From Fischerella muscicola PCC 7414 (lineage in GTDB: Bacteria > Cyanobacteriota > Cyanobacteriia > Cyanobacteriales > Nostocaceae), in assembly GCF_000317205.1 (NCBI RefSeq), contig NZ_AJLK01000127.1, forward strand, positions 1 to 53,944: a DNA stretch of 53,944 bases, in the 5' to 3' direction. The notes under the pieces are model-generated. The model was not told where the DNA came from. It worked only from the letters and a program-made list of their open reading frames with translations, and made no database searches. How positions within the stretch are numbered: the first letter of the stretch is position 1; each line of letters begins with the position of its first letter. Shown here piece by piece: positions 33,726 to 53,027 of the stretch. Made by a program: the position numbers and the translations under genes.

Positions 33726-34382
33726 ATGAGCGAATCGATTACTGTATCCTGGTCAACTGTTGATGCAAGACTTTCGGAAGCATCAGTGCAAGTTGACAAA
33801 CTTTCTAACCACGATTTAATTTTACGCTGTCAGACTGGACTGCGCCCAGATCGTGCTGCATTTGCAGAACTACTGCGTCGTTATCAATCCCAAGTCGATA
33901 GGGTATTGTATCATTTGGCCCCTGATTGGTCTGACAGAGCGGATCTCGCTCAAGAAGTTTGGATTCGGGTCTATCGCAATATTCACCGATTGCAAGAACC
34001 GTCTAAATTTCGGGGTTGGTTAAGCCGCATTGCCACTAACTTGTTCTACGACGAGTTACGCAAACGTAAGCGAGTTGTCAGTCCTGTTTCGCTGGATGCT
34101 CCCCGTTCGGTAGACGACGGCGAAATGGATTGGGAAATTGCAGGAGATACTCCTGGACCAGAGGAAGAACTCACAACTAGGGAGTTTTATGAGCAATTGC
34201 GAGATGCGATCGCGGATTTGCCTGAGGTATTCCGTACAACTATAGTGCTAAGGGAAATTGAGGGTATGGCATACGAAGAAATTGCCGAAATCACAGGAGT
34301 TTCCTTAGGAACAGTCAAATCGAGAATCGCCAGAGCTAGAGCCAGGTTGCAATCGCAGTTACAACCTTATCTTGGTTCCTAG
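33726..34382 (+). CDS. sigG: ECF-type RNA polymerase sigma factor SigG
   Basis: 218 residues with the two sigma-70 regions of ECF factors. Region 2 is FAELLRRYQSQVDRVLYHLA and DLAQEVWIRVYRNIHRL, with the −10 binding helix KFRGWLSRIATNLFYDELR. Region 4 is LREIEGMAYEEIAEITGV followed by SLGTVKSRIARARARL, the −35 binding helix-turn-helix. An acidic linker with DTPGPEEEL lies between. The anti-sigma gene follows 162 bp downstream on the same strand, so release of SigG is probably controlled by that membrane protein. In Nostoc punctiforme a SigG/SapG pair of this kind governs an envelope-stress regulon; the link to this gene is by similarity of layout. It starts at ATG 33726. Confidence 0.92.
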   Translation: MSESITVSWSTVDARLSEASVQVDKLSNHDLILRCQTGLRPDRAAFAELLRRYQSQVDRVLYHLAPDWSDRADLAQEVWIRVYRNIHRLQEPSKFRGWLSRIATNLFYDELRKRKRVVSPVSLDAPRSVDDGEMDWEIAGDTPGPEEELTTREFYEQLRDAIADLPEVFRTTIVLREIEGMAYEEIAEITGVSLGTVKSRIARARARLQSQLQPYLGS

Positions 34383-34483
34383 TTTAAAGTTCTACCTTTG
34401 ATTAATGGCAGATTTTTATATTTCATTAAGGTTTATTAAGATTATGGAAACTGCTTCTGCCATCAAGAAAAACAGGAGAAATA

Positions 34484-34534
34484 ATGATCAACTGGGGCCG
34501 AGTACGCTATGTTTACCCGTGCATGAATTGGTAA
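34484..34534 (+). CDS. 16-residue leader ORF before the anti-sigma gene
   Basis: ATG 34484 is preceded by AGGAGAA (34474-34480), the best ribosome binding site in the locus. It encodes MINWGRVRYVYPCMNW and stops at 34534, 10 bp before the anti-sigma ATG, which itself has no good ribosome binding site. It is in a different frame from the anti-sigma gene, so it is not its N-terminus. The arrangement suggests translational coupling or a leader peptide that sets anti-sigma levels. Confidence 0.45.
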   Translation: MINWGRVRYVYPCMNW

Positions 34535-34544
34535 TAATGTTAAG

Positions 34545-35162
34545 ATGACTACTGATTCTCATTTGAACGACCATTCCCACTTGCAATTAAATATCGATTT
34601 GCCAGATGGGGAGGCAGAGCATACCAATGAATTAACGGGTGCTATGGATATGGTGAAGCGCGATCGCTTCGAGTTATTGAGTGCTTATCTTGATGGAGAA
34701 GTGACAGCTGCCGAACGTAGGCAAGTAGAAGAACTACTGGCAAACGATCAGGCGGTGAAGTGCTTGTATGCACGGCTTTTGAAATTGCGTCAGGGCTTAC
34801 GAACTATGCCCGTACCGCAGTCACAGCCAGTGGAAGAAACTGTTGAACGAGTTCTATCTCGTTTACGTCGTCGCCGTGCGCGTTTGGGCTTGATCTGGGG
34901 AGGTACAGCGATCGCTGCGATGCTGATTGGTGCAGTATCTGGGTTATTACCAGGTGGGAAATTAACCCCACAACTAGCAAAAGCGCCTGCAACAGAACAG
35001 GCGCAACTAGCCAAGCCAGAAAATATTGCTGCTGCACCATTAATTGTTTCTATTAACAATCCTATTCTGCCAATTCCAAAAGCAGCAGAAACTGCTCCAG
35101 AAGAGCCAGCTAACCTGGATAAGCAGTTACAACCGTTAAGTATAGAAAACGAATATCATTAA
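34545..35162 (+). CDS. Anti-sigma factor for SigG (SapG-like)
   Basis: 205 residues. Residues 40-90 form an anti-sigma domain: DRFELLSAYLDGEVTAAERR followed by QVEELLANDQAVKCLYARLL. The HxxxCxxC zinc ligands of ZAS anti-sigmas are absent. One transmembrane segment (LGLIWGGTAIAAMLIGAVSG, about residues 110-130) follows an Arg-rich stop-transfer region, leaving a 70-residue Pro/Ala-rich outside domain. This layout fits a membrane anti-sigma that binds SigG in the cytoplasm and senses the envelope. It starts at ATG 34545 and depends for translation on the leader ORF or an upstream initiation. Confidence 0.85.
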   Translation: MTTDSHLNDHSHLQLNIDLPDGEAEHTNELTGAMDMVKRDRFELLSAYLDGEVTAAERRQVEELLANDQAVKCLYARLLKLRQGLRTMPVPQSQPVEETVERVLSRLRRRRARLGLIWGGTAIAAMLIGAVSGLLPGGKLTPQLAKAPATEQAQLAKPENIAAAPLIVSINNPILPIPKAAETAPEEPANLDKQLQPLSIENEYH

Positions 35163-39311: not shown

Positions 39312-40373
39312 ATGAAAATTTTTGTACCAGGACGCCTGTGTATATTTGGTGAACATAGTGATTGGGCGGGAGGATACCGCCATCTCAACCCTGAATTGGA
39401 AATAGGCTACACGTTGCTGGTAGGTACGAATCAGGGGCTGTATGCACAAGTGAAGCCTCATCCCAATCAATTAATTCTTGGTACCTCCCTTGGTGATGGA
39501 ACTCGTAAATCCCTAACTCTACCAATGGAAGCGCAGGCTTTGCTAGCAGAAGCTAGAAAGGGTGGATTTTTTAGTTATGCTGCTGGTGTTGCTTATCAAT
39601 TTTTAGTAGGGGCGCATAACTGTACTGGGGGAATAGAAATTGACAATTACCTAACTGATTTACCGATTCAAAAAGGGCTGTCATCGAGTGCAGCTATTTG
39701 CGTATTAGTGGCGAGGGCTTTTAATCTGGTATATGACTTAAAGATGTCGATCCAAGAAGAGATGGAGTTTGCCTATCTCGGAGAGATTACCACCCCTTCT
39801 TGTTGCGGACGGATGGATCAAGCTTGTGCTTACGGTAATCGTCCCATTGCTATGATCTTTGATGGTACCCGTACAGAGATCATCGAACTTAGTGTTCCCA
39901 AGGATTTGTTTTTTGTCATAGTGGATCTTGGTGCTAGCAAAAATACTCAAGTAATTCTTAGCAAACTTAATCAGTGTTATCCTTTCGCCACCAATACAGT
40001 GCAAGCGAATGTGCAAAAATATCTGGGTTCTATCAGCTATCAAATTACTCAAGCCGCCATTAACGCCTTACAAACAGGCGATGCAGAACAAATTGGTACT
40101 CTAATGAGACAAGCACAGGTAGAATTTGACAAGCATTTGATTCCGGCTTGTCCTGAGGAGTTAACAGCACCAGTCTTACATCAATTGCTGAATTATGCAC
40201 CGATTCAACCTTATATTTTAGGTGGGAAAGGTGTTGGTTCCCAAGGTGATGGCACAGCACAATTTATTGTCAAAGACAAAGAAAATCAACAAAAAGTAAT
40301 TGAAATCATTGAAAGATATTTCCCACACATGCAATGTTTACAACTGACTATTTATGCCGAAAAATCAAATTAA
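39312..40373 (+). CDS. GHMP-family sugar kinase
   Basis: 353 residues. GHMP signatures: VPGRLCIFGEHSDWAGG at residues 5-21 (galactokinase-like sugar-binding loop), KGLSSSAAICVL (121-132) as the ATP phosphate loop, CCGRMDQACA with the catalytic Asp169, and ILGGKGVGSQGDGTAQF near the C-terminus. It should phosphorylate the anomeric hydroxyl of a sugar with ATP. The next gene, a nucleotidyltransferase, overlaps it by 20 bp, so the two probably turn a free sugar into NDP-sugar. Which sugar is not readable from the sequence; L-fucose, galactose, arabinose and heptose kinases belong to the same family. Confidence 0.85.
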   Translation: MKIFVPGRLCIFGEHSDWAGGYRHLNPELEIGYTLLVGTNQGLYAQVKPHPNQLILGTSLGDGTRKSLTLPMEAQALLAEARKGGFFSYAAGVAYQFLVGAHNCTGGIEIDNYLTDLPIQKGLSSSAAICVLVARAFNLVYDLKMSIQEEMEFAYLGEITTPSCCGRMDQACAYGNRPIAMIFDGTRTEIIELSVPKDLFFVIVDLGASKNTQVILSKLNQCYPFATNTVQANVQKYLGSISYQITQAAINALQTGDAEQIGTLMRQAQVEFDKHLIPACPEELTAPVLHQLLNYAPIQPYILGGKGVGSQGDGTAQFIVKDKENQQKVIEIIERYFPHMQCLQLTIYAEKSN

Positions 40374-41241
40374 AAAAGCTGTAATACCTGCTGCTGGGTT
40401 TGGTACTCGCTTATTTCCTGCTACTAAAGTTGTGAAAAAAGAACTTTTCCCTATAGTTGATAAAGATGGTAGGGCCAAACCTGTAATTCAGCTAATAGTT
40501 GAAGAAGCAATTAGTGCTGGAATCGAAGAAATTGGCATTGTTGTACAACCGGAAGACAAAAGAGTTTTTATTGATTTATTTAAATATCCACCCAAAGCTG
40601 AACTGTTTGAAAAACTATCACCAGAAAATCAAAAACATAGTAAACACATTGTAGATTTAGGTGACAGAATCAAATTTTTGTCACAAAAAGAACAAGCAGG
40701 CTATGGACATGCTGTATATTGTGCTAAAGAATGGGTAAATGATCAACCATTTTTACTGATGTTAGGCGACCATATTTACGCATCAGATATCAAGAAATCT
40801 TGTGCGCGTCAAGTCTTAGAGGTTTATGCACAGCAAAATCAAAGTGTTGTTGGTTTAACAACAATACCAGCAGAAATTATTCATAAAGCTGGTTGTGTCA
40901 CAGGAGTTTGGCAAAAACATAATTCTATTCTTTCGTTAACACAAGTTTACGAAAAACCAACTGTTGAATACGCGCGTCAGCATTTGCGTGTGGAAGGAAT
41001 AGCAGAGAATGAATTTTTATCTATTTTTGGGTTGTATGCACTGACACCAAGGATTTTTGATTTTCTCGAAGATAATATTAATAATAACTTTCGAGAACGT
41101 GGCGAATTTCAATTAACAACCTGTCTAGAAAAAGTACGTCAAGTAGAGGGAATGATCGGATATGTTGTGCAAGGAAAAAGTTTTGATATTGGGATGCCTG
41201 ATGCTTATTTACAGACGCTAATTGATTTTAGAAATAGGTAA
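40354..41241 (+). CDS. GalU-like sugar-1-phosphate nucleotidyltransferase
   Basis: 295 residues. IPAAGFGTRLFPATKVVKKE is the nucleotide-binding signature of GalU-type UTP-sugar pyrophosphorylases, with LLMLGDHIYAS (metal-binding Asp), VYEKPTVE, FGLYALTP and FDIGMPDAYLQTLID at the later positions. GalU makes UDP-glucose from UTP and glucose 1-phosphate; this copy, paired with a sugar kinase through a 20-bp overlap, may handle the kinase product instead. It starts at ATG 40354. It is the second gene of a four-gene plus-strand run. Confidence 0.9.
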   Translation: MPKNQIKKAVIPAAGFGTRLFPATKVVKKELFPIVDKDGRAKPVIQLIVEEAISAGIEEIGIVVQPEDKRVFIDLFKYPPKAELFEKLSPENQKHSKHIVDLGDRIKFLSQKEQAGYGHAVYCAKEWVNDQPFLLMLGDHIYASDIKKSCARQVLEVYAQQNQSVVGLTTIPAEIIHKAGCVTGVWQKHNSILSLTQVYEKPTVEYARQHLRVEGIAENEFLSIFGLYALTPRIFDFLEDNINNNFRERGEFQLTTCLEKVRQVEGMIGYVVQGKSFDIGMPDAYLQTLIDFRNR

Positions 41242-41262
41242 TAATAAAAGTGGTAATCAACA

Positions 41263-41940
41263 ATGGCAATGAAGTTAGCAAAAGTCGTTCCCTTCGGGCG
41301 ATCGCTTGATGAATATGTGCAAATGTTCAATCTCACGAAATCAGATTTGCACAAGCGAATTTTGGGTGTCGGCGATGGCCCAGCTAGTTTCAATGCAGAA
41401 GCTACAAAAATAGGTGTACACGTCACTTCTATTGACCCAATATATCAATTTAGTAGTGATGAAATACTAAAAAGATTTAATGAAGTTGTTGATAATATCA
41501 TTGACCAAGTAAAAGCAAGTCCTGATGACTGGATTTGGTCTTATCACAAATCCCCTGAAGATTTACGATGGAATCGAGTACGAGCAATCAATAAATTTAT
41601 CAGTGATTATGAGCAGGGAAAACAAGAAAAAAGATATCAAGTTGGTGAACTACCAAAACTGAATTTTCAAGAGAAAGAATATGATATAGCTTTATGTTCA
41701 CATTTTCTCTTTTTGTACTCAGATCATCATGATTACCAATTCCACTTTGATGCCATTAAGGAGATGTTGAGAGTTAGTCAAGAAGTACGGATTTTTCCTC
41801 TGCTGACTCTGATGTTGCAACGTTCGCCATATCTCGATCGCATCACCCAAGAATTACAAGAACTAGGATATACAGTTTCAATTGTCAAAGTAGAATACGA
41901 ACTACAAAAAGGTGGCAATGAAATGTTGTGGATTCGGTAA
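41263..41940 (+). CDS. SAM-methyltransferase-like protein
   Basis: 225 residues. ILGVGDGPASFNAEATKIGV followed by TSIDPIYQF resembles motif I and the strand-2 acidic residue of class I methyltransferases. YDIALCSHFLFLYSDHHDYQ is at the place of motif IV, and EMLRVSQEVRIFPLLTLM of motif V. A 70-residue insert rich in charged residues (PDDWIWSYHKSPEDLRWNRV) lies between. It may be a methyltransferase with a modified active site. It starts at ATG 41263, 21 bp after the nucleotidyltransferase gene, so it is cotranscribed and presumably acts on the same sugar or product. Confidence 0.7.
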   Translation: MAMKLAKVVPFGRSLDEYVQMFNLTKSDLHKRILGVGDGPASFNAEATKIGVHVTSIDPIYQFSSDEILKRFNEVVDNIIDQVKASPDDWIWSYHKSPEDLRWNRVRAINKFISDYEQGKQEKRYQVGELPKLNFQEKEYDIALCSHFLFLYSDHHDYQFHFDAIKEMLRVSQEVRIFPLLTLMLQRSPYLDRITQELQELGYTVSIVKVEYELQKGGNEMLWIR

Positions 41941-42056
41941 ATACAAGGGCATTACTATTGAACTTCTCCCTGTACGAATATACTAAATAGACCTCAAAGG
42001 CTTGTATTGACTTAAGTCCAAGGCAAACTATCAAATGAAGTTATTCAAATAAACGT

Positions 42057-43208
42057 ATGTCATCTACACCCCAAGTTGCACCTTTTAGCCCCAGTCCAGC
42101 AAATCAGCAAACCATTGGCATTGCAGTTGTCGGTACAGGGTTCGGTCAAAAAGTTCATATCCCCGGATTCCAAGCACATCCCCGTACCCAAGTGGTTGCT
42201 GTTTATCACCGAAATACAGAAAAAGCCCAAGCGATCGCCCAAGCCCAAAATATCCCCTATGCTTGTGATGCGATCGCAGATATTGTTTCTTTAAAGGAAG
42301 TCCAAGCAGTCAGCATCGCGACACCACCGTTTCTCCACTACGAAATGGCTAAGGAAGTTTTGCAAGCTGGGAAACATTTATTACTAGAAAAACCTGTAAC
42401 TTTAAACGTAGACGAAGCTAAAGAACTTTATTTTTTAGCAAAATCAAAAGGCGTGATTGCCACTGTAGATTTTGAATTTCGGTTTGTACCCGGTTGGCAA
42501 TTATTCTCGGAACTGTTATCACAAGACTATGTTGGCAACAAACGTTTAATTAGAATTGATTGGTTGGGTTCCTCCCGCGCTGATGCTTCTCGTCCTTGGA
42601 ACTGGTATTCACAAAAAGATAAGGGTGGTGGTGCGTTAGGTTCTTTGGGTTCCCATACTTTTGATTATATTAACTGGTTATTTGGCCCTGTACGCAGATT
42701 AAGCGCCCATTTGACTACTGCAATACCCCAACGTCCAGACAGCAATACAGGTGAATTACAGCCAGTAAATAGCGATGACACCTGCATGTTGATGCTGGAA
42801 TTAGCAGATGGGACACCTTGCCAAATTTCTATCAGTGCGGTTGTACATGCACCCCGTACTCATTGGTTGGAAGTGTATGGCGATCGCGGTACTCTAGTTT
42901 TAGGTAGCGAAAATCAAAAAGACTACATTCATGGTTTTCGTGTTTGGGCATCTCAGCCTGGTAAACAATTAACAGAAATCGAAATTCCTAATAGATTAAT
43001 CTTTCCGAAAAATTATGCCGATGGTCGGATTTCTGCATTCCTGAGAGTTGTAGATCAATGGGTACAAGGAATTGATCAAGGAGAAGAAGTAGTTCCGTCC
43101 TTGCGAGAAGGTGTTTATTCTCAATTATTGATGGATTTATCCCATGAATCAAATATGAAATCAAACTGGGTTGATGTGCCTAGTTTGGAAGAGATTTTGG
43201 GGATTTGA
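42057..43208 (+). CDS. Gfo/Idh/MocA-family oxidoreductase
   Basis: 383 residues. The Rossmann motif is IGIAVVGTGFGQKVHIPGF (residues 20-38), LLLEKPVTLN carries the conserved EKP (Lys112) and GGGALGSLGSHTFDYINWL the sugar-binding His/Asp region. These enzymes use NAD(P) to oxidise, reduce or epimerise sugars, inositols or bilin-like substrates. The gene is 116 bp after the methyltransferase-like gene on the same strand and is the last of the run. It likely belongs to sugar modification in the glycan island. It starts at ATG 42057. Confidence 0.88.
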   Translation: MSSTPQVAPFSPSPANQQTIGIAVVGTGFGQKVHIPGFQAHPRTQVVAVYHRNTEKAQAIAQAQNIPYACDAIADIVSLKEVQAVSIATPPFLHYEMAKEVLQAGKHLLLEKPVTLNVDEAKELYFLAKSKGVIATVDFEFRFVPGWQLFSELLSQDYVGNKRLIRIDWLGSSRADASRPWNWYSQKDKGGGALGSLGSHTFDYINWLFGPVRRLSAHLTTAIPQRPDSNTGELQPVNSDDTCMLMLELADGTPCQISISAVVHAPRTHWLEVYGDRGTLVLGSENQKDYIHGFRVWASQPGKQLTEIEIPNRLIFPKNYADGRISAFLRVVDQWVQGIDQGEEVVPSLREGVYSQLLMDLSHESNMKSNWVDVPSLEEILGI

Positions 43209-43410: not shown

Positions 43411-44343
43411 TTACAAACTAGCCTTGAGTTGGCGCAATTGACTCTTCAAATGATCCAATCTACTTTGCCATTGATTTTTCCTAACAGGTGCGGGGATATC
43501 TGCTAGGGGTAAAGCTGGATTTAAGTTGCGGTAATATTGCCAAATTTCCCAATAAGGACAACCAGGTTGGATGCGAATACCTGCCCAATGTAGATATTGT
43601 AGTGGTTGATTTAATGTCGGATCAAATAGTACGTGTTCCTTAATTTGAAAATTGGGAGTTCCTGCCCAATTTCCTGGTGCTTTGCCCTCACGGCGGACGA
43701 TGTTAAAACGGCGAGGAATTCGCTTGAGGAGCATGTAGTTAATGATTGGTTGATCAGAAGTTTTTTGAGAGAAATCAAAGTATTCTGGATGAACTGCACA
43801 TTCAACGAAAGTTTCATATAAATCCTGTTTGGAAATGAAATTTTTTTTAGCGCCCCAGAAACCACCATTAAAAATGTCTTTTAGTTCATTTTCAGTAAAT
43901 ACTTTTTCTTCTATTACTTTGGAAGTAAAGACATTCTGAATACCGCCCAAGTGTTGATAATCACAACAAATAAAATCTACATGATTTAAATATTTGAGAT
44001 TATCAATAATTTTTTCAAAGACGACAATATCTGTATCAATGTACAAAAATTCATCAAAGGGACCAAACCAACAAGCCTGCTTCCGGAATTGATTAGGACG
44101 AGCAAAAAATTTATCTCCAAAGGTTTCATGTAATTTATTAGAAAGTCGGTCGATAAACTCTAAATCTTCGTAGATTCCAACTTGATAATGTTTGCTGAGA
44201 GTGTTAGCGATATTGTGATAATTTTCATCATAAGGAATCATGATAATTGGTGTTTCTTGGTCATATAATCTAATACTATTGAGGAGTGCGATCGCATAAT
44301 CAATGACCTTATCATTGGCAATAATATAAATTCCCCGAGTCAT
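43411..44343 (-). CDS. DXD glycosyltransferase-like protein (sister of the next gene)
   Basis: 310 residues from ATG 44343; GAGG in the end of the upstream gene is the ribosome binding site. The start GIYIIANDKVIDYAIALLNS and FDEFLYIDTDIVVFE (DTD, a DXD-type metal site) indicate a GT-A nucleotide-sugar transferase resembling GT8-like enzymes. A later region, IFNGGFWGAKKN and LHWAGIRI, fits the second half of that fold. It has the same layout as the protein of 44348-45358, so the two are probably duplicates. It resembles what RefSeq calls the Npun_R2821/Npun_R2822 family, by memory. Donor and acceptor unknown. It is the last gene of the minus-strand run. Confidence 0.75.
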   Translation of the reverse strand: MTRGIYIIANDKVIDYAIALLNSIRLYDQETPIIMIPYDENYHNIANTLSKHYQVGIYEDLEFIDRLSNKLHETFGDKFFARPNQFRKQACWFGPFDEFLYIDTDIVVFEKIIDNLKYLNHVDFICCDYQHLGGIQNVFTSKVIEEKVFTENELKDIFNGGFWGAKKNFISKQDLYETFVECAVHPEYFDFSQKTSDQPIINYMLLKRIPRRFNIVRREGKAPGNWAGTPNFQIKEHVLFDPTLNQPLQYLHWAGIRIQPGCPYWEIWQYYRNLNPALPLADIPAPVRKNQWQSRLDHLKSQLRQLKASL

Positions 44344-44347
44344 GAAA

Positions 44348-45358
44348 TTACACCTCAACTTTTATACCTAACTTTCTTAAAAATCGTGTTGTTAAACTTG
44401 GTGGTGCATTGTAAGCTCTGGCTTTAGTAGTAAACTTGGGTTGTTGTTCTGGCTCATGCAAATAGCGATAGTGTAAGAAAATATCCCGATAGGGAAAATC
44501 AATATTTTCACCATCACAAACTCTATTAAAAAGTTTGGAAGATAAACCAATATAATGCAGATAAGTTAATCTATTGCCCTGATCATAGAGAACATTATTG
44601 CGATTCTCAAATTGTGGAGAAGTTACGCAACAGCCAGTAGCTTGAGTTGCAGGTAAATTGAGCGAAAAGTTATAAAATGAGACATTTGCTCTCATTCTCA
44701 TATAGTTGAGAACAGATTGATTGGGAGCAGCCATATATAAAACATCTGATTCCCCTTCATTTAATTTAGTCAGCAACCAATCTCTTTGTTCTGGGGGAAA
44801 TATCCCTCGCTTAGAAGCGTAAAAACCAGAACAGAAAATTTCTGAGTCAATCTGCTGTTGACTAAATATCTCTAAAAGTTTGGGAGATTTTAAGTTGTAG
44901 ATATGAGCAGGGTCTTTATACTGAAAGTCATAAACAACAAAATCATGATGATCCAACTGCTCAAAAATAAAATCTAGAGGCTGCATGACCAACGTATCAG
45001 CATCTAAATAGATAAACTTTTCAAATATGCTCTCTGGATCAAAAGCACAGTAACGGCGATTTTCTCCCACTCTGTAAAACTTTTTAATCCCTCGTTCTTG
45101 CCAAGTTTGGATAGCAGTTGGATGAGATTGCCATACTTGCAAAGAAAATTCTTCCCAACAAGCAAAAATATCAGGATCTTCTAGCAGAGTAACATTCTTT
45201 CGCGATGCAACTTCGCTCCGGACTTTATCTACTTGATCATTATAAGCAATCACACATACAGGCACATCTGCACCAGCGTTAACTTCTATGCTGTTAAGTA
45301 ATGCCACCAATTGGTTATAAACTACATCATTAGCTAAAGTATAAATTCCATTTTTCAT
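44348..45358 (-). CDS. DXD glycosyltransferase-like protein
   Basis: 336 residues. GIYTLANDVVYNQLVALLNS is the opening, FEKFIYLDADTLVMQPL has the DAD metal-binding triad, and IFCSGFYASKRGIFPP and LHYIGLSSKLF follow. The gene pair 43411-44343/44348-45358 are sisters with 4 bp between stop and start, and 45363-46313 ends 4 bp upstream, so all three are translated from one mRNA. Predicted cytoplasmic, acting on sugar nucleotides. Starts at ATG 45358. Confidence 0.75.
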   Translation of the reverse strand: MKNGIYTLANDVVYNQLVALLNSIEVNAGADVPVCVIAYNDQVDKVRSEVASRKNVTLLEDPDIFACWEEFSLQVWQSHPTAIQTWQERGIKKFYRVGENRRYCAFDPESIFEKFIYLDADTLVMQPLDFIFEQLDHHDFVVYDFQYKDPAHIYNLKSPKLLEIFSQQQIDSEIFCSGFYASKRGIFPPEQRDWLLTKLNEGESDVLYMAAPNQSVLNYMRMRANVSFYNFSLNLPATQATGCCVTSPQFENRNNVLYDQGNRLTYLHYIGLSSKLFNRVCDGENIDFPYRDIFLHYRYLHEPEQQPKFTTKARAYNAPPSLTTRFLRKLGIKVEV

Positions 45359-45362
45359 TTTT

Positions 45363-46313
45363 TTAGCCTTGTTGTTTCACAAAATTCGATATCCAATTGA
45401 GCAAATTTAATTCGTGTAAAATAATTTGACGAGCCTCAGCGATAGCCTCTTTTGCTTCATACCAAGCATCAGGAGTTGCGGTGATTTCTTGAATATAGGC
45501 AATACCTTTTTCATCTAAGCTAGGTAAGCGTAAAAAACTACCGGGTGGTAATAACTTATCGGCAGCTGAACCACCGTAATAAATTGGTAAACACCACGCT
45601 AAAAGTGCGTCCCATAATTTTTCACTTACATACCAATTATTGCCACTATAATTTTCAATCGCCAGATTGTAATAGTACGGAGCCATACCATACCATTTGT
45701 TACCTAACTCGCCTGATGATTTTGTCCAGTTAGGTAAATCTCGTCCGTAGAAATCTACTTTAATTCCACTTGATTGTAAAGACTTTAAAAATTCTAAGCG
45801 CTGGCGATGGTTAGCAGTACGGCTAATTCCAGAAGTAATCCAACTGCAACTAGATATTTTTTCTGGTGGTGGCATTTCATGCAAATCTCGAAAAGAATTG
45901 GCATGATACCAAATAGCATGCATATAATCAGGAGTTGGAGCAAAATCATCAGGCCCTGATACGTAACCACAATACTTTTGCGCTTCTTGGTAAGCTAATT
46001 TGTGTTTTTCTACAACTTCATCTAAAGGTGGTTCACGTAGTAAATAAATGATTCGCTCTTTGGGAACTCCACGCAGAAAAGTTTCGATTTTGACTTCTGA
46101 TTTTTGTGGTTTACGAAATCTATCTAACCAAGATTTTTTTGGGGGAGTTTTGGGAAAATTAAACTGATACATTAATAAAAAATCTGGTTGGGTTGCCAGT
46201 GCTTGCATTTGTATATTTCCCCAAACACCAAATGGATGGGGTGTTTGTTGCCATAGCCAATCGCCTTGTTTTTCTAGTGCGCGATAGCTGCTAATCATGC
46301 CAATTGTTTTCAT
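45363..46313 (-). CDS. GT10 (fucosyltransferase)-like glycosyltransferase
   Basis: 316 residues. The C-terminal half has the alpha-1,3-fucosyltransferase block: YYNLAIENYSGNNWYVSEKL followed by WDALLAWCLPIYYGGSAADK and LLPPGSFLRL (about residues 215-260). This corresponds to the family signature in which E and K bind GDP-fucose. The N-terminal half is the acceptor domain. The predicted reaction is transfer of fucose or another deoxyhexose to a glycan. It starts at ATG 46313. GDP-fucose synthesis genes (gmd, fcl) are not in this window. Confidence 0.8.
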   Translation of the reverse strand: MKTIGMISSYRALEKQGDWLWQQTPHPFGVWGNIQMQALATQPDFLLMYQFNFPKTPPKKSWLDRFRKPQKSEVKIETFLRGVPKERIIYLLREPPLDEVVEKHKLAYQEAQKYCGYVSGPDDFAPTPDYMHAIWYHANSFRDLHEMPPPEKISSCSWITSGISRTANHRQRLEFLKSLQSSGIKVDFYGRDLPNWTKSSGELGNKWYGMAPYYYNLAIENYSGNNWYVSEKLWDALLAWCLPIYYGGSAADKLLPPGSFLRLPSLDEKGIAYIQEITATPDAWYEAKEAIAEARQIILHELNLLNWISNFVKQQG

Positions 46314-46421: not shown

Positions 46422-47630
46422 TTAGTGAGTAACTAATTCAGGGTGTAGAGATTCGTCAACGTAACTCAGGATTTTGGCAGCACGATTTTCCCAGGAAAAT
46501 TGTTTAACAAACTCGATAATTTCTGGGTATCCTTTTTCTTTGCGAGGATATGTTTCTAGTACCTGCTTTAATGCTGCGGCAAATTTACTTGGATTATCTG
46601 GTTCACACCAAGCAGCGATCGCGTTAGTATTTTTAAACTCCATTAATGAAGGAATTTCTGTTGCCACAATCGGATTGCCAGAGGCTAAATAATCAAATAA
46701 CTTCATTGGAGATGTAAAAGTTGCAGCAGGCCCAGAACAGTGGGGATGAGCTAAAACATCAGCTGCTTGCAGTAAGGATGCTAAATCTTTGTGCAGAATA
46801 TAACCTAAAAAGCTAATGTTATCTACCTGTTTTTGTTGCGCTAATTGCTGATAGTAAGCAACTTCTTTTTCATCGCCTCCGGCACAGACAAATTCAATAT
46901 TAGTTAATTCTTTAGCAACATCAATTAAAATATCAATGCCTTTAAATTGTCTTAATGCTCCCGAATAAACTACTAGTTGTTTTCGCCCATTTTTGAGTAG
47001 TTTTTGTCGCCAGAGAGCAGCTTTTTCTGGTTGCCTTTCCATAAAAAAGCGGTTATAGCCATTATGTAATTTAATTACTTTTTCTGGCGGCATTCCTTTG
47101 ACAATCATGTCGTCGCGGATGGTATCGGCTACTGTGATGGCTAATTGAAATAACGGATGACTCACGATTTCTGGTTCAAATTTTTTATCCTCATGATGAT
47201 GGTGTTCGTAAATAACTGGGATGCCATGTTTGATGGCAGCTTTGATAAAATTCCAGTTCCAAGCATGAACAAGTTTAGTTTGGGAAAGAATATGAAATGG
47301 AAAATAGTATTTGGTGGCGATGGTATTAGAATTAGTTAATTTTCCTTTGATATGATCTACAGGCCAAGGCATTGGCAAAGGTGCTATTTTTAGCCTTTCT
47401 TGTAGGTTGTAGTATTTAATCAGTTTTGCTGATGCTTTTCTGGGTCGGAAAGGACGAATTAAATTTAAAGGATTGAGTGCAGATAATCCTTTAGAGGGAT
47501 AAGCTAAAACAGTTGCATAACCCAAATTAGCTGCTCCATTAGCTGCGTTGGTAGATTGAACTAAACTCGCTCCTGGTTTGGGAATTTCATCTACTAAAAA
47601 AAAGACGTAATATTTTTGAGTATTTTCCAT
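46422..47630 (-). CDS. GT4-family glycosyltransferase
   Basis: 402 residues. Typical GT-B fold: NAANGAANLGYATVLAYPSK in the N-terminal half, LVVYSGALRQFKGIDILIDV at about residue 220 as the donor loop, and SPMKLFDYLASGNPIVATEI, carrying a variant of the EX7E motif (E near 349 region). An EHHHHEDKKFEPE stretch lies in the acceptor half. It starts at ATG 47630, only 2 bp after the ABC exporter's stop codon, so the two are coupled. Acceptor and donor unknown. Confidence 0.88.
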   Translation of the reverse strand: MENTQKYYVFFLVDEIPKPGASLVQSTNAANGAANLGYATVLAYPSKGLSALNPLNLIRPFRPRKASAKLIKYYNLQERLKIAPLPMPWPVDHIKGKLTNSNTIATKYYFPFHILSQTKLVHAWNWNFIKAAIKHGIPVIYEHHHHEDKKFEPEIVSHPLFQLAITVADTIRDDMIVKGMPPEKVIKLHNGYNRFFMERQPEKAALWRQKLLKNGRKQLVVYSGALRQFKGIDILIDVAKELTNIEFVCAGGDEKEVAYYQQLAQQKQVDNISFLGYILHKDLASLLQAADVLAHPHCSGPAATFTSPMKLFDYLASGNPIVATEIPSLMEFKNTNAIAAWCEPDNPSKFAAALKQVLETYPRKEKGYPEIIEFVKQFSWENRAAKILSYVDESLHPELVTH

Positions 47631-47632
47631 AA

Positions 47633-49849
47633 TTATTTAACTTTAATTGTATTTTCAAAATTTTCTAAATTATTCAGAAAATGTATGGCAGATTGCAGCG
47701 CTTTTTCAATAAATTCATTTTCTCTATGAGAATTATTGTCTAGTAAACGCAAATAATTAACTATTTGATCGCTATCTGTATGAAACTCTTTGGCAATATG
47801 AACTATGTTGGGATATTGGGTATTTGCATCTTGGGTTTGCCATTTTGTTTCTAGGCTAACCATATCGTCAATCACATCAATAATATTGAGAATTTTCAAA
47901 GCAGATTTATAAGCATCTGCAATTAATTCCTGTCTTTCTTGGGGGTTGTCTGCTAAGTTGTCAACCAATAACAGCAGAAACCCAATCATTGAATTGAGAC
48001 GTGTGCGAATTTCGTGGGAGATGCGAATTAAACCTTCTTGGTGTTTGCTGGTAGATTCTTGTTGTTCACCAAACTGCATTGAGTATAGGCGGGAGTAATG
48101 ACCATTTTTTTGTAAAAGTTCTTCATGAGTTCCCACCTCTACTACTCGTCCTTGATCTAAGACGGCGATTTGATCAGCTTTTTGCACGGTAGACAAGCGG
48201 TGTGCAATTACCAAGGTGGTACGATCGCGACTTAAATCATCTATCGCTTCCTGTACTAAACGTTCAGAAACTGTATCTAAGGCGCTGGTAGCTTCATCTA
48301 AAATGAGTATTTCGGGATTTTGTAATAAGGCCCTGGCGATCGCCAGACGCTGTTTTTGTCCTCCTGATAACATCACACCGCGATCACCAATCAATGTATC
48401 AAATCCTTGAGGTAATTTACTAATAAATTCGTAAGCATTAGCCTGCTTAGTGGCAGTAACAATTTCATCATCGGTGGCATCAGTACGTCCGTAAGCAATG
48501 TTGTTTCGCACCGAATCATTAAACAAAAACGTGTCTTGACTAACAATTCCCATCCCTTTGCGTAGAGATGTAATTTCAAATTCCCGTATATCAATGTCAT
48601 CAATGGTTATAGAACCGGAAATCGGATCATAAAATCTCGGTAAAAGGTCTGCTACAGTTGATTTTCCTGCTCCAGAACTACCTACTAAAGCTAAAGTTGT
48701 GCCACGCGGTAGATATAAATCTACGTCCTTGAGTACCATTTTTTCATGACCAGGGTAGGCAAAAGAAATATGGTTAAAACTAATACCTTTATTTAAATTT
48801 TTATAAGTAATACTACCATTTTTCATTAAAGGCTTATCATCCCGACGGAGAAAATCGGCAGTTACTTCAACGCTGCTGGTTGCATTAGCAAAACTATTGC
48901 GGAGAGTATTTAACTGAGAAATGAGTGGTAATAATCGCAGTAAGATTAATAAATAAGTGAGTAAAACAGTTGAGAGTGAAGCAATTTTTTCTTGAAAAAA
49001 TGTGCGACTTAAAATCACTATTAACAAGAGAGCAACAACTCCCATCACCTCACTAATCGGTGCGATCGCCTCGGAATTCATTTGAGAGCGAAAGTCAGCT
49101 TTTTCACGTTCCCGAATAAATTCTTTAATGCGTTGATATTCTCTTTTTTCATTACCTGTTGCTTTAACTAATCTAATACCACTGAGAATTTCTAGAATCG
49201 CAATTGAATACGCTTTTGACATTTCACTCAGTAGTTTACCAAAAGTTCGAGAACGAGCAATTACATACTGATTAATCAACGTCACAAAAGACAACAAAAT
49301 CGTAGCAGCAATAGTTAATTGCCAAGAAATCGAGATTAGTAAAGCGACAAAAACTAAAATAGTAATTCCTAGAATCACTAACTTAACTGTATTGCTAATC
49401 GTAGTAGCAGCGCGACCAATTTCTCCACCAAGTCGATTAATTAAATCACCAACTTTCATCTTGGCGTAATAATCTATGTCTATTTCTAGTAATAGCTGTA
49501 CACCTGCTTCTCGCATGTCAGAAGTCAAGCGACGTGATAAATAGCTAGATGTCAAGGAACTAGCGTAACTAGCTAAATTTTTTAAAAAAATTATTAGTAT
49601 AATTACCCCAGCCATTAGCCACAAGCGATTATTTTCTGACATGTTATCAAACGGAGAAGTAATCGCTTTGAGAATGGGAGGAGCGCTGCTAAAGTCTACT
49701 TCTTGTCCCACAATTTTTAAAATTACAGGCACAATTAAAGCTGTACCTACCCCGTTAAACAAAGCTCCAGAAAATCCTAATATTATTGTTAGGAAAATCA
49801 GACCTGGATAGGGTTTAGCAAATCTGAGTAGTAGTTTACGAGTAGACAT
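47633..49849 (-). CDS. ABC exporter with extra C-terminal HisKA-like domain
   Basis: 738 residues. Residues 1-320 have six membrane helices of an ABC exporter half-transporter, and 340-590 form the ATPase: Walker A GSSGAGKSTV, Q-loop SQDTF, signature LSGGQKQRLAIARAL, Walker B ILILDEATSALD and the H-loop AHRLST. The type is MsbA/HepA-like, which in heterocystous cyanobacteria exports lipid-linked or envelope polysaccharides. An unusual 141-residue tail follows (about 598-738) with RISHEIRTRLNSMIGFLLLL, close to the histidine-kinase H-box (His612; the usual Pro is Arg), then a helical pair and more helices. No HATPase_c motif follows. Both neighbours are glycosyltransferases. It starts at ATG 49849. 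Confidence 0.88.
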   Translation of the reverse strand: MSTRKLLLRFAKPYPGLIFLTIILGFSGALFNGVGTALIVPVILKIVGQEVDFSSAPPILKAITSPFDNMSENNRLWLMAGVIILIIFLKNLASYASSLTSSYLSRRLTSDMREAGVQLLLEIDIDYYAKMKVGDLINRLGGEIGRAATTISNTVKLVILGITILVFVALLISISWQLTIAATILLSFVTLINQYVIARSRTFGKLLSEMSKAYSIAILEILSGIRLVKATGNEKREYQRIKEFIREREKADFRSQMNSEAIAPISEVMGVVALLLIVILSRTFFQEKIASLSTVLLTYLLILLRLLPLISQLNTLRNSFANATSSVEVTADFLRRDDKPLMKNGSITYKNLNKGISFNHISFAYPGHEKMVLKDVDLYLPRGTTLALVGSSGAGKSTVADLLPRFYDPISGSITIDDIDIREFEITSLRKGMGIVSQDTFLFNDSVRNNIAYGRTDATDDEIVTATKQANAYEFISKLPQGFDTLIGDRGVMLSGGQKQRLAIARALLQNPEILILDEATSALDTVSERLVQEAIDDLSRDRTTLVIAHRLSTVQKADQIAVLDQGRVVEVGTHEELLQKNGHYSRLYSMQFGEQQESTSKHQEGLIRISHEIRTRLNSMIGFLLLLVDNLADNPQERQELIADAYKSALKILNIIDVIDDMVSLETKWQTQDANTQYPNIVHIAKEFHTDSDQIVNYLRLLDNNSHRENEFIEKALQSAIHFLNNLENFENTIKVK

Positions 49850-50048: not shown

Positions 50049-51221
50049 CTACAACCGAGCAATTACCGATTTTAAGCTAGATGCCATTGCCTCTAAACTA
50101 TATTTTTCTATACACCTTTGTCTGGCTCTTTTTCCACGTTCATTTGCTGCATCTAAATCTTGAAATATCAATTGAATTTGCTCGGCAATTTCTTCGGGAG
50201 AACCAGGCGCAGCTAAATAACCTGTTCCCCCTAAAATATTGGGAATATCTCCTACTTTTGTTGATAATACTGGTTTAGCCATTGCCATTCCATCTGTTAT
50301 TTTCAGAGGGAATTGAGCGCGAGTTTCTGGAGTATCTCGTTGGGGAACAACCACAATATCAGCAGCAGCTACTACATCTGGCATCACATCTGCGGAAAAT
50401 TTTGGTAGTTTAATCATCCAACGTCCCCATTGCTGTTGAAGTTGGCGATCGTAATCATCGTAGGGACTACCACCCACAATTACAAGTTTTAAATCAGACT
50501 GATTGATTTTTTCTAGTGCCATAAGAATATCTTCTAGACCTTTATAAGGTCTTGGCGCACCAGGAAACATCAAAATTTTATATCCTGATAAACCATAACG
50601 ATTTCTACTAGCATTACTGTCATATCGGGATGGATCAAATAAAGAGGTATCTTTTCCATTAGGAACAAACGTACCTCCAAATCGTTGCTGCAAAAATTGA
50701 TTATGTACAGTTACAGCATCAGCCTGATTAATCAAAGCTTCCATCCATTTCAAATACAAAGGATGATAAGGTGATCTTAAAGCACCATTTGATTTCAATA
50801 AATCTCTAGCAAACTGTTTGAGCGTAGGACGATATTGCCAACTATCGCCACCGTGCCAACTCATTTCCCAATCATCAATATCTACAATTACAGGTCGTCG
50901 AGTATAGAGTTTTTTTAAAAGTGCAACACCATAACTAGCAGGTTGAGGCTTAATTGCGTAAATAATATCTCCATCAATACGTTTTATTAATTCACCAATG
51001 GACTTAAAAAACTTTGGATAATTAGCACCCTCTCTAGCCTGTAATTTAGTATTAGGAGGAATAGCTGCATATAATTCCTTTCCAAATAAAAAACCTAAAA
51101 TTTCTACCTCATATCCTAACTGTATTAATGATTTTTGTAATAATGATGCTCGGATATAACCATCATTAGTTGACAAATTCCAAACTAGTATTGATATTTT
51201 TAATTTATCTTTCTGCTTCAT
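50049..51221 (-). CDS. GT4-family glycosyltransferase
   Basis: About 390 residues from ATG 51221 (GTG 51233 is also in frame). ILVWNLSTNDGYIRASLLQK is the N-terminal GT-B domain; FVPNGKDTSLFDPSRYD and KILMFPGAPRPYKGLEDILM form the donor-binding domain, followed by PLKITDGMAMAKPVLSTKVG in place of the EX7E motif region. GT4 enzymes retain the anomeric configuration and use NDP-sugars in polysaccharide assembly. It is followed by the ABC exporter gene after 199 bp on the same strand, which has its own promoter or continues the operon. Confidence 0.88.
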   Translation of the reverse strand: MKQKDKLKISILVWNLSTNDGYIRASLLQKSLIQLGYEVEILGFLFGKELYAAIPPNTKLQAREGANYPKFFKSIGELIKRIDGDIIYAIKPQPASYGVALLKKLYTRRPVIVDIDDWEMSWHGGDSWQYRPTLKQFARDLLKSNGALRSPYHPLYLKWMEALINQADAVTVHNQFLQQRFGGTFVPNGKDTSLFDPSRYDSNASRNRYGLSGYKILMFPGAPRPYKGLEDILMALEKINQSDLKLVIVGGSPYDDYDRQLQQQWGRWMIKLPKFSADVMPDVVAAADIVVVPQRDTPETRAQFPLKITDGMAMAKPVLSTKVGDIPNILGGTGYLAAPGSPEEIAEQIQLIFQDLDAANERGKRARQRCIEKYSLEAMASSLKSVIARL

Positions 51222-51412
51222 AATAAATAGCACATCTTATAGCAACCGATTAATTGTTTTTGAATAAGCATCACATGAATAATCCATCTGCGTCCATCTG
51301 TTTACCCTGCGGGAAGCCGCCCTTACGGACGTCTACATCTGTGTCCATCTGTGTTCGATAAAATATACACAATTTTCATCACAGATTAAATCCAGAACCA
51401 ACGTAAATATAT
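51222..51412. repeat. Spacer with ATCTGTGTCC repeats
   Basis: Between the two glycosyltransferase genes, several CCATCTGTG/ACATCTGTG units (about 51282-51350) surround a GC-rich insertion AAGCCGCCCTTACGGACG (near 51314-51331), the same kind of element seen after leuS. No ORF. Confidence 0.65.
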
Positions 51413-52255
51413 TCATTTTCCCCGCCAAGGATTAGTAACTTGATTAGGCATAAAAACTTGAGCAAACTTATCAAACACCCTTGTGTATAATGACCTAGTA
51501 ATATTTTTCGCATATTGAGGTCTATAAGCATAAGTACAATGAAGAACCTTAATTTCTTCTTCAATTTCGTAGCAATCTTTCCATTTACTTAAATAGTTAT
51601 AGGCGGGTGGCAAAACTTTCAAATTGGGACGTACAGTTTCAATCGCAGCTGCAAAAGCTCCTTGATCTCTTAATAACAACTTATCTTGATTACTTTGAAT
51701 AATTTCAAAATACTTTTGAAATTCATTAAAAAAGCTTTTGATTTTCTCATTTTTACGAAAAGCTATCAAGCCACTATTATATTGAATACTATTTTCTTGT
51801 AATGGTAGACCTACTGATTGTAAAATCTGCAAAACTTTTGGTAAATTTTCTTGCTGATTACCTCGCAATAAGTTTGTAGCTTTACTAATAACAGGTTGTA
51901 CATCTTCTGTTAATAACAAATCAAATTCATTTAAATACTCAAATACATCATTAAGATTAGTAAGTAAGCAAATATCCGAATCCAAAAAAATCGTTCTATC
52001 AAATTCTGAGAATGAATATAAAGCAACTTTTGCTAAACGTGATGCTAAAACAGTATTTTCATTAGCAGGTGCTGATTTTAAAATTACATTTTTAAAAGCT
52101 GTCAATAAAGGATAAAAAACTTTTGGAACCTGGTCTATCAAAATAATTATTGGTTCTTGATGAAACTTCCTGATAGCAGCCAAAAAATGAATGCAATCTT
52201 GAAATGAGTATAGACCTGTTAAAATAGTAATAAATCCTCTTGTTTCTTTCGACAT
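51413..52255 (-). CDS. GT8-like nucleotide-sugar transferase
   Basis: 280 residues. GFITILTGLYSFQDCIHFL starts the Rossmann-like fold, RTIFLDSDICLL supplies the DSD metal site (about residues 86-97), QYNSGLIAFRKN and LLRDQGAFAAAIE give further GT-A blocks, and VLHCTYAYRPQY has the late His. This is a divergent GT8-type glycosyltransferase. It starts at ATG 52255. It is the first gene of the minus-strand glycan run, 142 bp after the 75-residue protein gene. Confidence 0.78.
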   Translation of the reverse strand: MSKETRGFITILTGLYSFQDCIHFLAAIRKFHQEPIIILIDQVPKVFYPLLTAFKNVILKSAPANENTVLASRLAKVALYSFSEFDRTIFLDSDICLLTNLNDVFEYLNEFDLLLTEDVQPVISKATNLLRGNQQENLPKVLQILQSVGLPLQENSIQYNSGLIAFRKNEKIKSFFNEFQKYFEIIQSNQDKLLLRDQGAFAAAIETVRPNLKVLPPAYNYLSKWKDCYEIEEEIKVLHCTYAYRPQYAKNITRSLYTRVFDKFAQVFMPNQVTNPWRGK

Positions 52256-52396: not shown

Positions 52397-52624
52397 TTAC
52401 CAATTAACTAATTTTAACCGTCCTGTTTGTATATGGTCAAAAATACGATTAATTTGACGACGTCCTCCTTCATTTATTTCACCGTTATTAAGTACGGTAG
52501 ATGTGAGTAATGCATGGTCTTGACGACTCATTTCTCCTGATGTAATAATTCGATTTACAATTGCCTCTACAGCTAATTCAGATTGATTGCCAAGAGTTTT
52601 GTAGATGGGGTTGTATTTAATCAT
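52397..52624 (-). CDS. Small conserved-type protein (75 residues)
   Basis: 75 residues from ATG 52624; TTG 52645 would add seven. Core: SELAVEAIVNRIITSGEMSR followed by NGEINEGGRRQINRIFDHIQ and TGRLKLVNW. No motif of known function is recognised, but it is non-repetitive, helical and ends cleanly. Its central 50 residues resemble the N-terminal region of the ComFB protein at 30366-30920 (TGEV/TGRL, ELS/EIN, R at matching places). It probably is cytoplasmic. It lies upstream of the glycosyltransferase run, same strand. Confidence 0.65.
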   Translation of the reverse strand: MIKYNPIYKTLGNQSELAVEAIVNRIITSGEMSRQDHALLTSTVLNNGEINEGGRRQINRIFDHIQTGRLKLVNW

Positions 52625-53027
52625 CTTTTTCTCTGGTAGATGCAAATTTTCATGTCAATCTTTGCTCTATCTTCTATTAATTAAAGAGAGCGATTATCAA
52701 CATAGAAAACTATAGTGCTAAATAAAATAAAGCAAATGTTTTTTTGCTTTATCTAAACCTTTTTGTGTTTTGAATACGCAAAATAACCAAAATAAATCTA
52801 ACTTTGTATTTGCTTTTCTACCCAGAGAAAAATTACTGATAAATTGATACCTGGTTTCTAGTAAAAAAACTAATTACCGTAAAAGTACGGTTGTCAGCTT
52901 TTATTTTTCAAGAAATTTTCAAGCTATAATCAGAAAAATATAAATCTTGTGCTGATCGCCTCAAGCTTTTGCTAGGCATAGAATTGCTAGTGAATATTAA
53001 CAACGATTTGTGAGGGAGGCACAGTTA
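52625..53027. other. Intergenic region upstream of gloB
   Basis: 403 bp of AT-rich DNA between divergent genes; it must contain both promoters. A GGGAGG ribosome binding site (53014-53019) serves gloB. No repeats or ORF of note. Confidence 0.45.

Follow-up and report, generated by a model that had tools for sequence, protein, structure and literature searches.

The window analysed here, the whole 53,944-nucleotide stretch of contig NZ_AJLK01000127.1 of Fischerella muscicola PCC 7414 (source genome of 6.9 Mb in 270 contigs), carries on its minus strand an ABC exporter gene (47633..49849) that starts with ATG and encodes 738 amino acids. The transmembrane part of the protein comprises about residues 1–340 (48830..49849, minus strand; Pfam ABC_membrane at 58–304), and the ATPase part comprises about residues 350–593 (48071..48802, minus strand; Pfam ABC_tran at 373–522). 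The Walker A, LSGGQ, Walker B, and H-loop residues are invariant or nearly so in the exporter family (alignment A6), and the protein has both domains and the intact motifs expected of a half-transporter. In NCBIfam, the exporter part comes closest to HepA (NF045513), the ABC exporter of heterocyst polysaccharide, but its 587.9 bits miss the 725-bit cut-off of that model. A second protein of the same genome (L002) scores 1035.1 bits for HepA, so the window gene is a HepA-like paralogue. The HepA match of L002 fills residues 27–634 of 637, ending three residues short of the C-terminus and thus leaving no room for a tail of the kind described below. The nearest named relatives of the window exporter come from Fischerella and allied Nostocales.

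A GT4 glycosyltransferase gene lies upstream of the exporter (50049..51233, minus strand) and a second one downstream (46422..47630, minus strand), in agreement with the initial annotation, which had placed the exporter between glycosyltransferases. Also on the minus strand are a GT10 (fucosyltransferase-like) gene (45363..46313), two genes of the NCBIfam Npun_R2821/Npun_R2822 family that are weakly Mannosyl_trans3-like (43411..45358), and a nucleotide-sugar transferase-like gene (51413..52255) for which PF03407 scores just above its cut-off and GT8 below. No paper in the limited literature collection searched names Npun_R2819-R2824. Across 80 loci of named relatives, the exporter's best-conserved neighbour, the upstream GT4 gene, has a counterpart in all 80, the GT10 gene in 77, and the downstream GT4 gene in 71; in the wider class, a relative of at least one window glycosyltransferase accompanies the exporter in at least 65 of 77 loci (at least 62 of 70 genomes), a lower bound, with flanks mostly of 1.5 to 3 kb. 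These conserved neighbours, together with the likeness of the exporter to HepA/MsbA, suggest that the cargo is probably a glycan or a lipid-linked sugar. An 82-residue ORF with no Pfam or NCBIfam match (52397-52645, minus strand) lies between a hydroxyacylglutathione-hydrolase-like gene and the nucleotide-sugar transferase-like gene, and its relatives adjoin the cluster in 21 of the 80 loci of named relatives and in 7 of the 77 wider loci. On the plus strand, a gene for an ECF-type sigma factor precedes a zf-HC2 zinc-finger (anti-sigma-like) gene (33726-35162), and the stretch 39312-43208, which adjoins the glycosyltransferase cluster, encodes a GHMP kinase, a sugar nucleotidyl transferase, a product without a Pfam match, and a GFO/IDH/MocA oxidoreductase. 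Among the 17 ORFs of at least 120 amino acids between 31847 and 53801, Pfam finds no two-component domain besides the exporter's own.

That domain resides behind the ATPase part, as a helical hairpin derived from HisKA, the dimerization and histidine phosphotransfer (DHp) module of histidine kinases. Hairpin 1 covers residues 601–667 (47849..48049, minus strand; model helices 599–629 and 636–670), and Pfam HisKA (PF00512) matches residues 610–667 at 27.3 bits in the whole protein, against a curated cut-off of 26.9. On the last 150 amino acids alone, the match rises to 32.1 bits (E 1.2e-7), and HATPase_c is absent among the Pfam matches of the protein up to E 10; both results bear out the HisKA-like tail without an HATPase_c domain that had been proposed from the sequence. 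The H-box, S611-H612-E-I-R615-T-R617-L-N619 (47993..48019, minus strand), has His at position 612 and Arg (R617) where Pro is usual; in the family, residue 612 varies, Ser611 and Arg615 are kept, and the Pro is absent. Hairpin 1 is under purifying selection, with dN/dS of 0 to 0.35 over ten pairs (0.17 or less in eight of them), compared with 0.04 to 0.16 for the exporter parts of the same pairs. As Pfam HisKA also matches 28 of the 31 family tails submitted at E ≤ 0.01, the resemblance is more than chance. Thirteen sequences of solved structures match a profile covering the junction and the first hairpin at E ≤ 1. Most of them are histidine kinases, among them 7n0e (E 2e-5) and 7z8n (7.3e-5), with DivL (4q20) at just E 0.31.

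The initial annotation had described a HisKA segment followed by a helical hairpin. The hairpin is indeed there, but HisKA already spans a hairpin of its own (599–670), and what follows (678–736) is a second, degenerate copy in tandem. This hairpin 2 (residues 676–736; 47642..47824, minus strand; model helices 678–705 and 707–736) scores 24.1 bits with a hairpin model derived from the first copy, and genome-wide searches with the profile that spans the junction and the first hairpin also find hairpin 2 (E 2.9e-7 in genome G002 and 1.8e-14 in G034); in the window protein, Pfam reports hairpin 1 only. Its dN/dS over the ten pairs is 0.10 to 0.42. The AlphaFold2 model of residues 585–738, built from 57 alignment rows, has four long helices (pLDDT 83.1, pTM 0.76), and the tail, as a single chain modelled alone, is predicted to be a compact four-helix bundle, not the other kind of fold that the initial annotation had named as a refuting outcome. 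The structural neighbours of this model are generic bundles, and a model of the full-length exporter was of poor quality.

At E ≤ 1e-150, the exporter is found in 49 of 60 genomes, its own counted; at E ≤ 1e-160, in 113 of 291 genomes of the class. A sample of 117 genomes from the phylum has it in 28 at E ≤ 1e-130. All 28 carriers of the phylum sample belong to the exporter's own family, order, or class (the 117 may include few or many genomes from outside the class), and two of them (G052 and G054) have a 40% match only. The tail is widespread in the exporter family, and its presence in close homologues, on which the first reading depended, is seen in 151 of 163 non-redundant exporters: in this non-random sample, 94 have two hairpins, 57 have one, and 12 have none. 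The sequences were 48, 81 (from 80 loci), and 66 frames, or 195 rows, of which 176 were distinct; a split frame (L123, two pieces) and a contig-end piece (L153) were dropped, a broken frame of G051 (L075) having been excluded earlier, two outgroup paralogues were added to give 175 rows, and removal of rows more than 97.5% alike left 165, of which 163 belong to the family. As the 40 places of the wider-class sample were picked by hand (long frames first, then a mix with some tail-less ones) and several tail-less genomes were left out, 12 of 163 underestimates tail-less copies. The hairpin counts lean to sensitivity, since the model derives from hairpin 1, and its threshold (E < 0.01) was applied within the set of tails. 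By eye, from match ends and frame lengths, 21 of the 113 class genomes have only a tail-less copy, with one genome (G086) ambiguous. Since the tail is missing both from these genomes and from 12 of the exporters read, transport would not need it. In genomes of group f45, exporters have two Tyr-type hairpins each, and a second exporter paralogue there (L184-L186, L188, L190, L191; frames of 809–987 codons) differs in that a long insert separates the ATPase from a Tyr-type hairpin, which is followed by a further stretch. Genome G019 has two adjacent exporter copies; in one of them (L058), hairpin 1 reads ADEVQSKLN and hairpin 2 SHQIRIRLN.

The closest non-exporter relative of the hairpin in the same genome is a GAF-HisKA-HATPase_c kinase (L039). 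Its HisKA domain shares 43–45% identity over 71–74 residues with the exporter hairpin, including the loop and the second helix; it differs in having His, Pro, and HATPase_c, whereas the exporter tail lacks the HATPase_c domain and the Pro, and often the His. In all 12 other genomes tested, the best non-exporter match was again a relative of L039 (45–96% identity over most of the protein), and in one genome (G210), the L039-type kinase outscores the exporter tail in the profile search. With the hairpin model, L039-type kinases score 58–78 bits (64.7 for the window genome's own), and the other kinases among the matches listed score 14–64 bits, headed by a short relative in G079 (64.4) and, after it, one in G036 (59.5). 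At E ≤ 1e-90, an L039-type kinase occurs in 48 of 60 genomes, many matches covering the kinase half only. It is present in all 21 genomes with a tail-less exporter (some judged by frame length alone), in 19 of 24 tail-bearing genomes, and in 8 of 15 genomes where the exporter searches found none. The kinase is general and does not track the tail. The descent of the exporter hairpin from a GAF-type cyanobacterial kinase is well supported by these sequence comparisons, and a partnership between the tail and this parental kinase is not supported by them.

In the 57 single-hairpin exporters, residue 612 is Tyr in 52, His in 4, and Phe in 1, and Ser611 is kept in 56, Arg615 in 57, and Glu613 and Asn619 in 44 each. 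In hairpin 1 of the 94 two-hairpin exporters, residue 612 is His in 67, Tyr in 19, and another residue in 8, while Glu613 and Arg615 are each kept in 92. Overall, the 151 first hairpins have His in 71, Tyr in 71, and another residue in 9, so that the conserved phospho-accepting His expected of a histidine kinase is not found across orthologues. The position of hairpin 2 that matches residue 612 has no preferred residue, and Arg (76) and Glu (68) occur at its H-box positions. The H-box Pro at H+5 occurs in none of the 151 counted first hairpins and in none of the 161 before the redundancy cut. The sole exception among the sequences read is the dropped split frame L123, a Calothrix rhizosoleniae exporter frame broken into pieces of 361 and 422 codons, whose hairpin reads HEIRNPL, with both His and Pro; the dropped contig-end piece L153 has Asn in place of Arg615. 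The proposal that the tail is a phospho-acceptor is therefore not supported for the family as a whole, though it keeps a small chance for the His-bearing Nostocales, which include the window protein. Outside the window's family-level group, His occurs in four rows with a single hairpin; the 67 His rows with two hairpins belong to that group or to named records, almost all in Nostocales families (the exceptions being one in Microcoleaceae and two without a family). His at 612 is mainly a Nostocales state that comes and goes. A FastTree phylogeny built from the exporter part, with weak support at many forks, gives 13 His/non-His changes, 12 changes of Glu613, 10 of hairpin number, and 2 of Arg615, the last count partly restating the conservation of Arg615, which is absent from just two rows; His612 looks derived in Nostocales on this tree.

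The explanation we tentatively prefer, at somewhat less than an even chance, is that the tail is a DHp module that no longer transfers phosphate but acts as a clamp on the exporter and presents a surface for docking. An old fusion would have added the HisKA (DHp) hairpin from a cyanobacterial kinase of the GAF type to the end of the ATPase of a HepA/MsbA-like exporter, where it would carry out no phosphotransfer. In single-hairpin members, the hairpins of the two subunits in the exporter dimer would come together as a four-helix bundle tying the ATPase domains together, and in Nostocales, the two hairpins of one chain could build the bundle inside one subunit. The conserved face of Ser611, Tyr/His612, Arg615, and Asn619 would be the docking site for a partner from a two-component system, most likely a response-regulator receiver, and the bound partner would tighten or loosen the bundle and so adjust export, much as DivL reads DivK~P without chemistry. 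The HisKA matches, the compact bundle model, and the purifying selection on hairpin 1 also favour this reading. The closest precedent is the Caulobacter pseudo-histidine kinase DivL, whose H-box is conserved apart from Tyr in place of His and has Arg at H+3. It binds the phosphorylated regulator DivK~P, and R553A, T557N, Y562A, and H579E disrupt this binding, while Y550H is without effect (PMC4211667, available in part). DivL R553 (H+3) corresponds to Arg615 of the exporter tail; residue 612 is Tyr in 52 of the 57 single-hairpin exporters but His in the window tail. DivL also retains its PAS and CA domains, and the available portion of that source does not present it as part of a transporter. 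The conservation of H-box residues without chemistry fits docking by analogy with DivL. Against DivL-type docking, the H+7 position of the tail is Asn, as in the binding-deficient T557N, and H+12 is variable; against the preferred reading as a whole stand the lack of a partner among the window ORFs scanned (31847 to 53801), a parental kinase that does not track the tail, the exporters and genomes in which the tail is missing, and the His of the window protein.

The tail could instead be a purely structural clamp, the hairpins just keeping two ATPase domains close with no signalling partner, and this has a modest chance of being right. Its C-terminal position, the four-helix model, and the conserved core Leu positions all suit such a role, as does the leucine-zipper-like motif of TmrAB, a C-terminal exporter element that stabilises the ATPase dimer and that, in the available portion of the source, is not described as kinase-derived (PMC7756269). 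However, in the single-hairpin set, the entropy of Ser611, Tyr612, Arg615, and Glu638 (0 to 0.5 bits) is as low as that of core Leu618, Leu625, and Leu627 (0.1 to 0.6 bits), and a zipper would have no need of H-box residues. Because a mere coil would need its hydrophobic core only, the retention of the polar positions suggests more than a coil, and the keeping of Tyr612 in single-hairpin lineages looks unlike random decay. The docking and dimerization options of the initial annotation both fit these data.

It is unlikely that the tail has become a phospho-acceptor in Nostocales, with a regained His612 receiving phosphate from a kinase or a phosphorylated regulator. The His of two-hairpin members, its near restriction to Nostocales, its apparently derived state there, the high retention of Glu613 and Arg615, and the His and Pro of L123 would all suit this role, but close relatives have Tyr, Asp, Gly, Gln, or Val instead, His is exchanged repeatedly on the tree, and neither the H-box Pro in the counted hairpins nor an HATPase_c domain is present. 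That the tail acts on the parental GAF kinase as a decoy or inhibitor, pairing with the kinase DHp as RetS replaces the GacS DHp partner (PMC12148439, available in part), is very improbable; the kinase is the best non-exporter match in every genome tested, yet it is missing in five of the 24 tail-bearing genomes (four of them 97–100% complete), present in all tail-less ones, and not among the window ORFs scanned (31847 to 53801). RetS–GacS does illustrate how a DHp hairpin can pair with a partner not its own, in this case blocking catalysis, although there both partners are kinases (PMC12148439).

The limited literature collection searched gave no report of a HisKA domain fused to an ABC transporter, and its papers touching on cyanobacteria, ABC transporters, HisKA, and exopolysaccharide together were by title on other subjects. 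Two-component modules are normally read out at promoters or at enzyme output domains. A more far-reaching version of the docking reading, which we regard as rather doubtful, is a direct switch in which a phosphorylated receiver would bind the dead DHp of the exporter and set surface-glycan export without acting on transcription in much of Cyanobacteria, with Nostocales regaining a phosphorylatable His. Regulation of export by the tail is what we infer; a kinase-derived hairpin that many cyanobacteria retain at the end of a presumed glycan exporter would link signalling to export at the cell surface by a post-translational route. Arg615 and residue 612 offer a testable handle on the regulation of such exporters.
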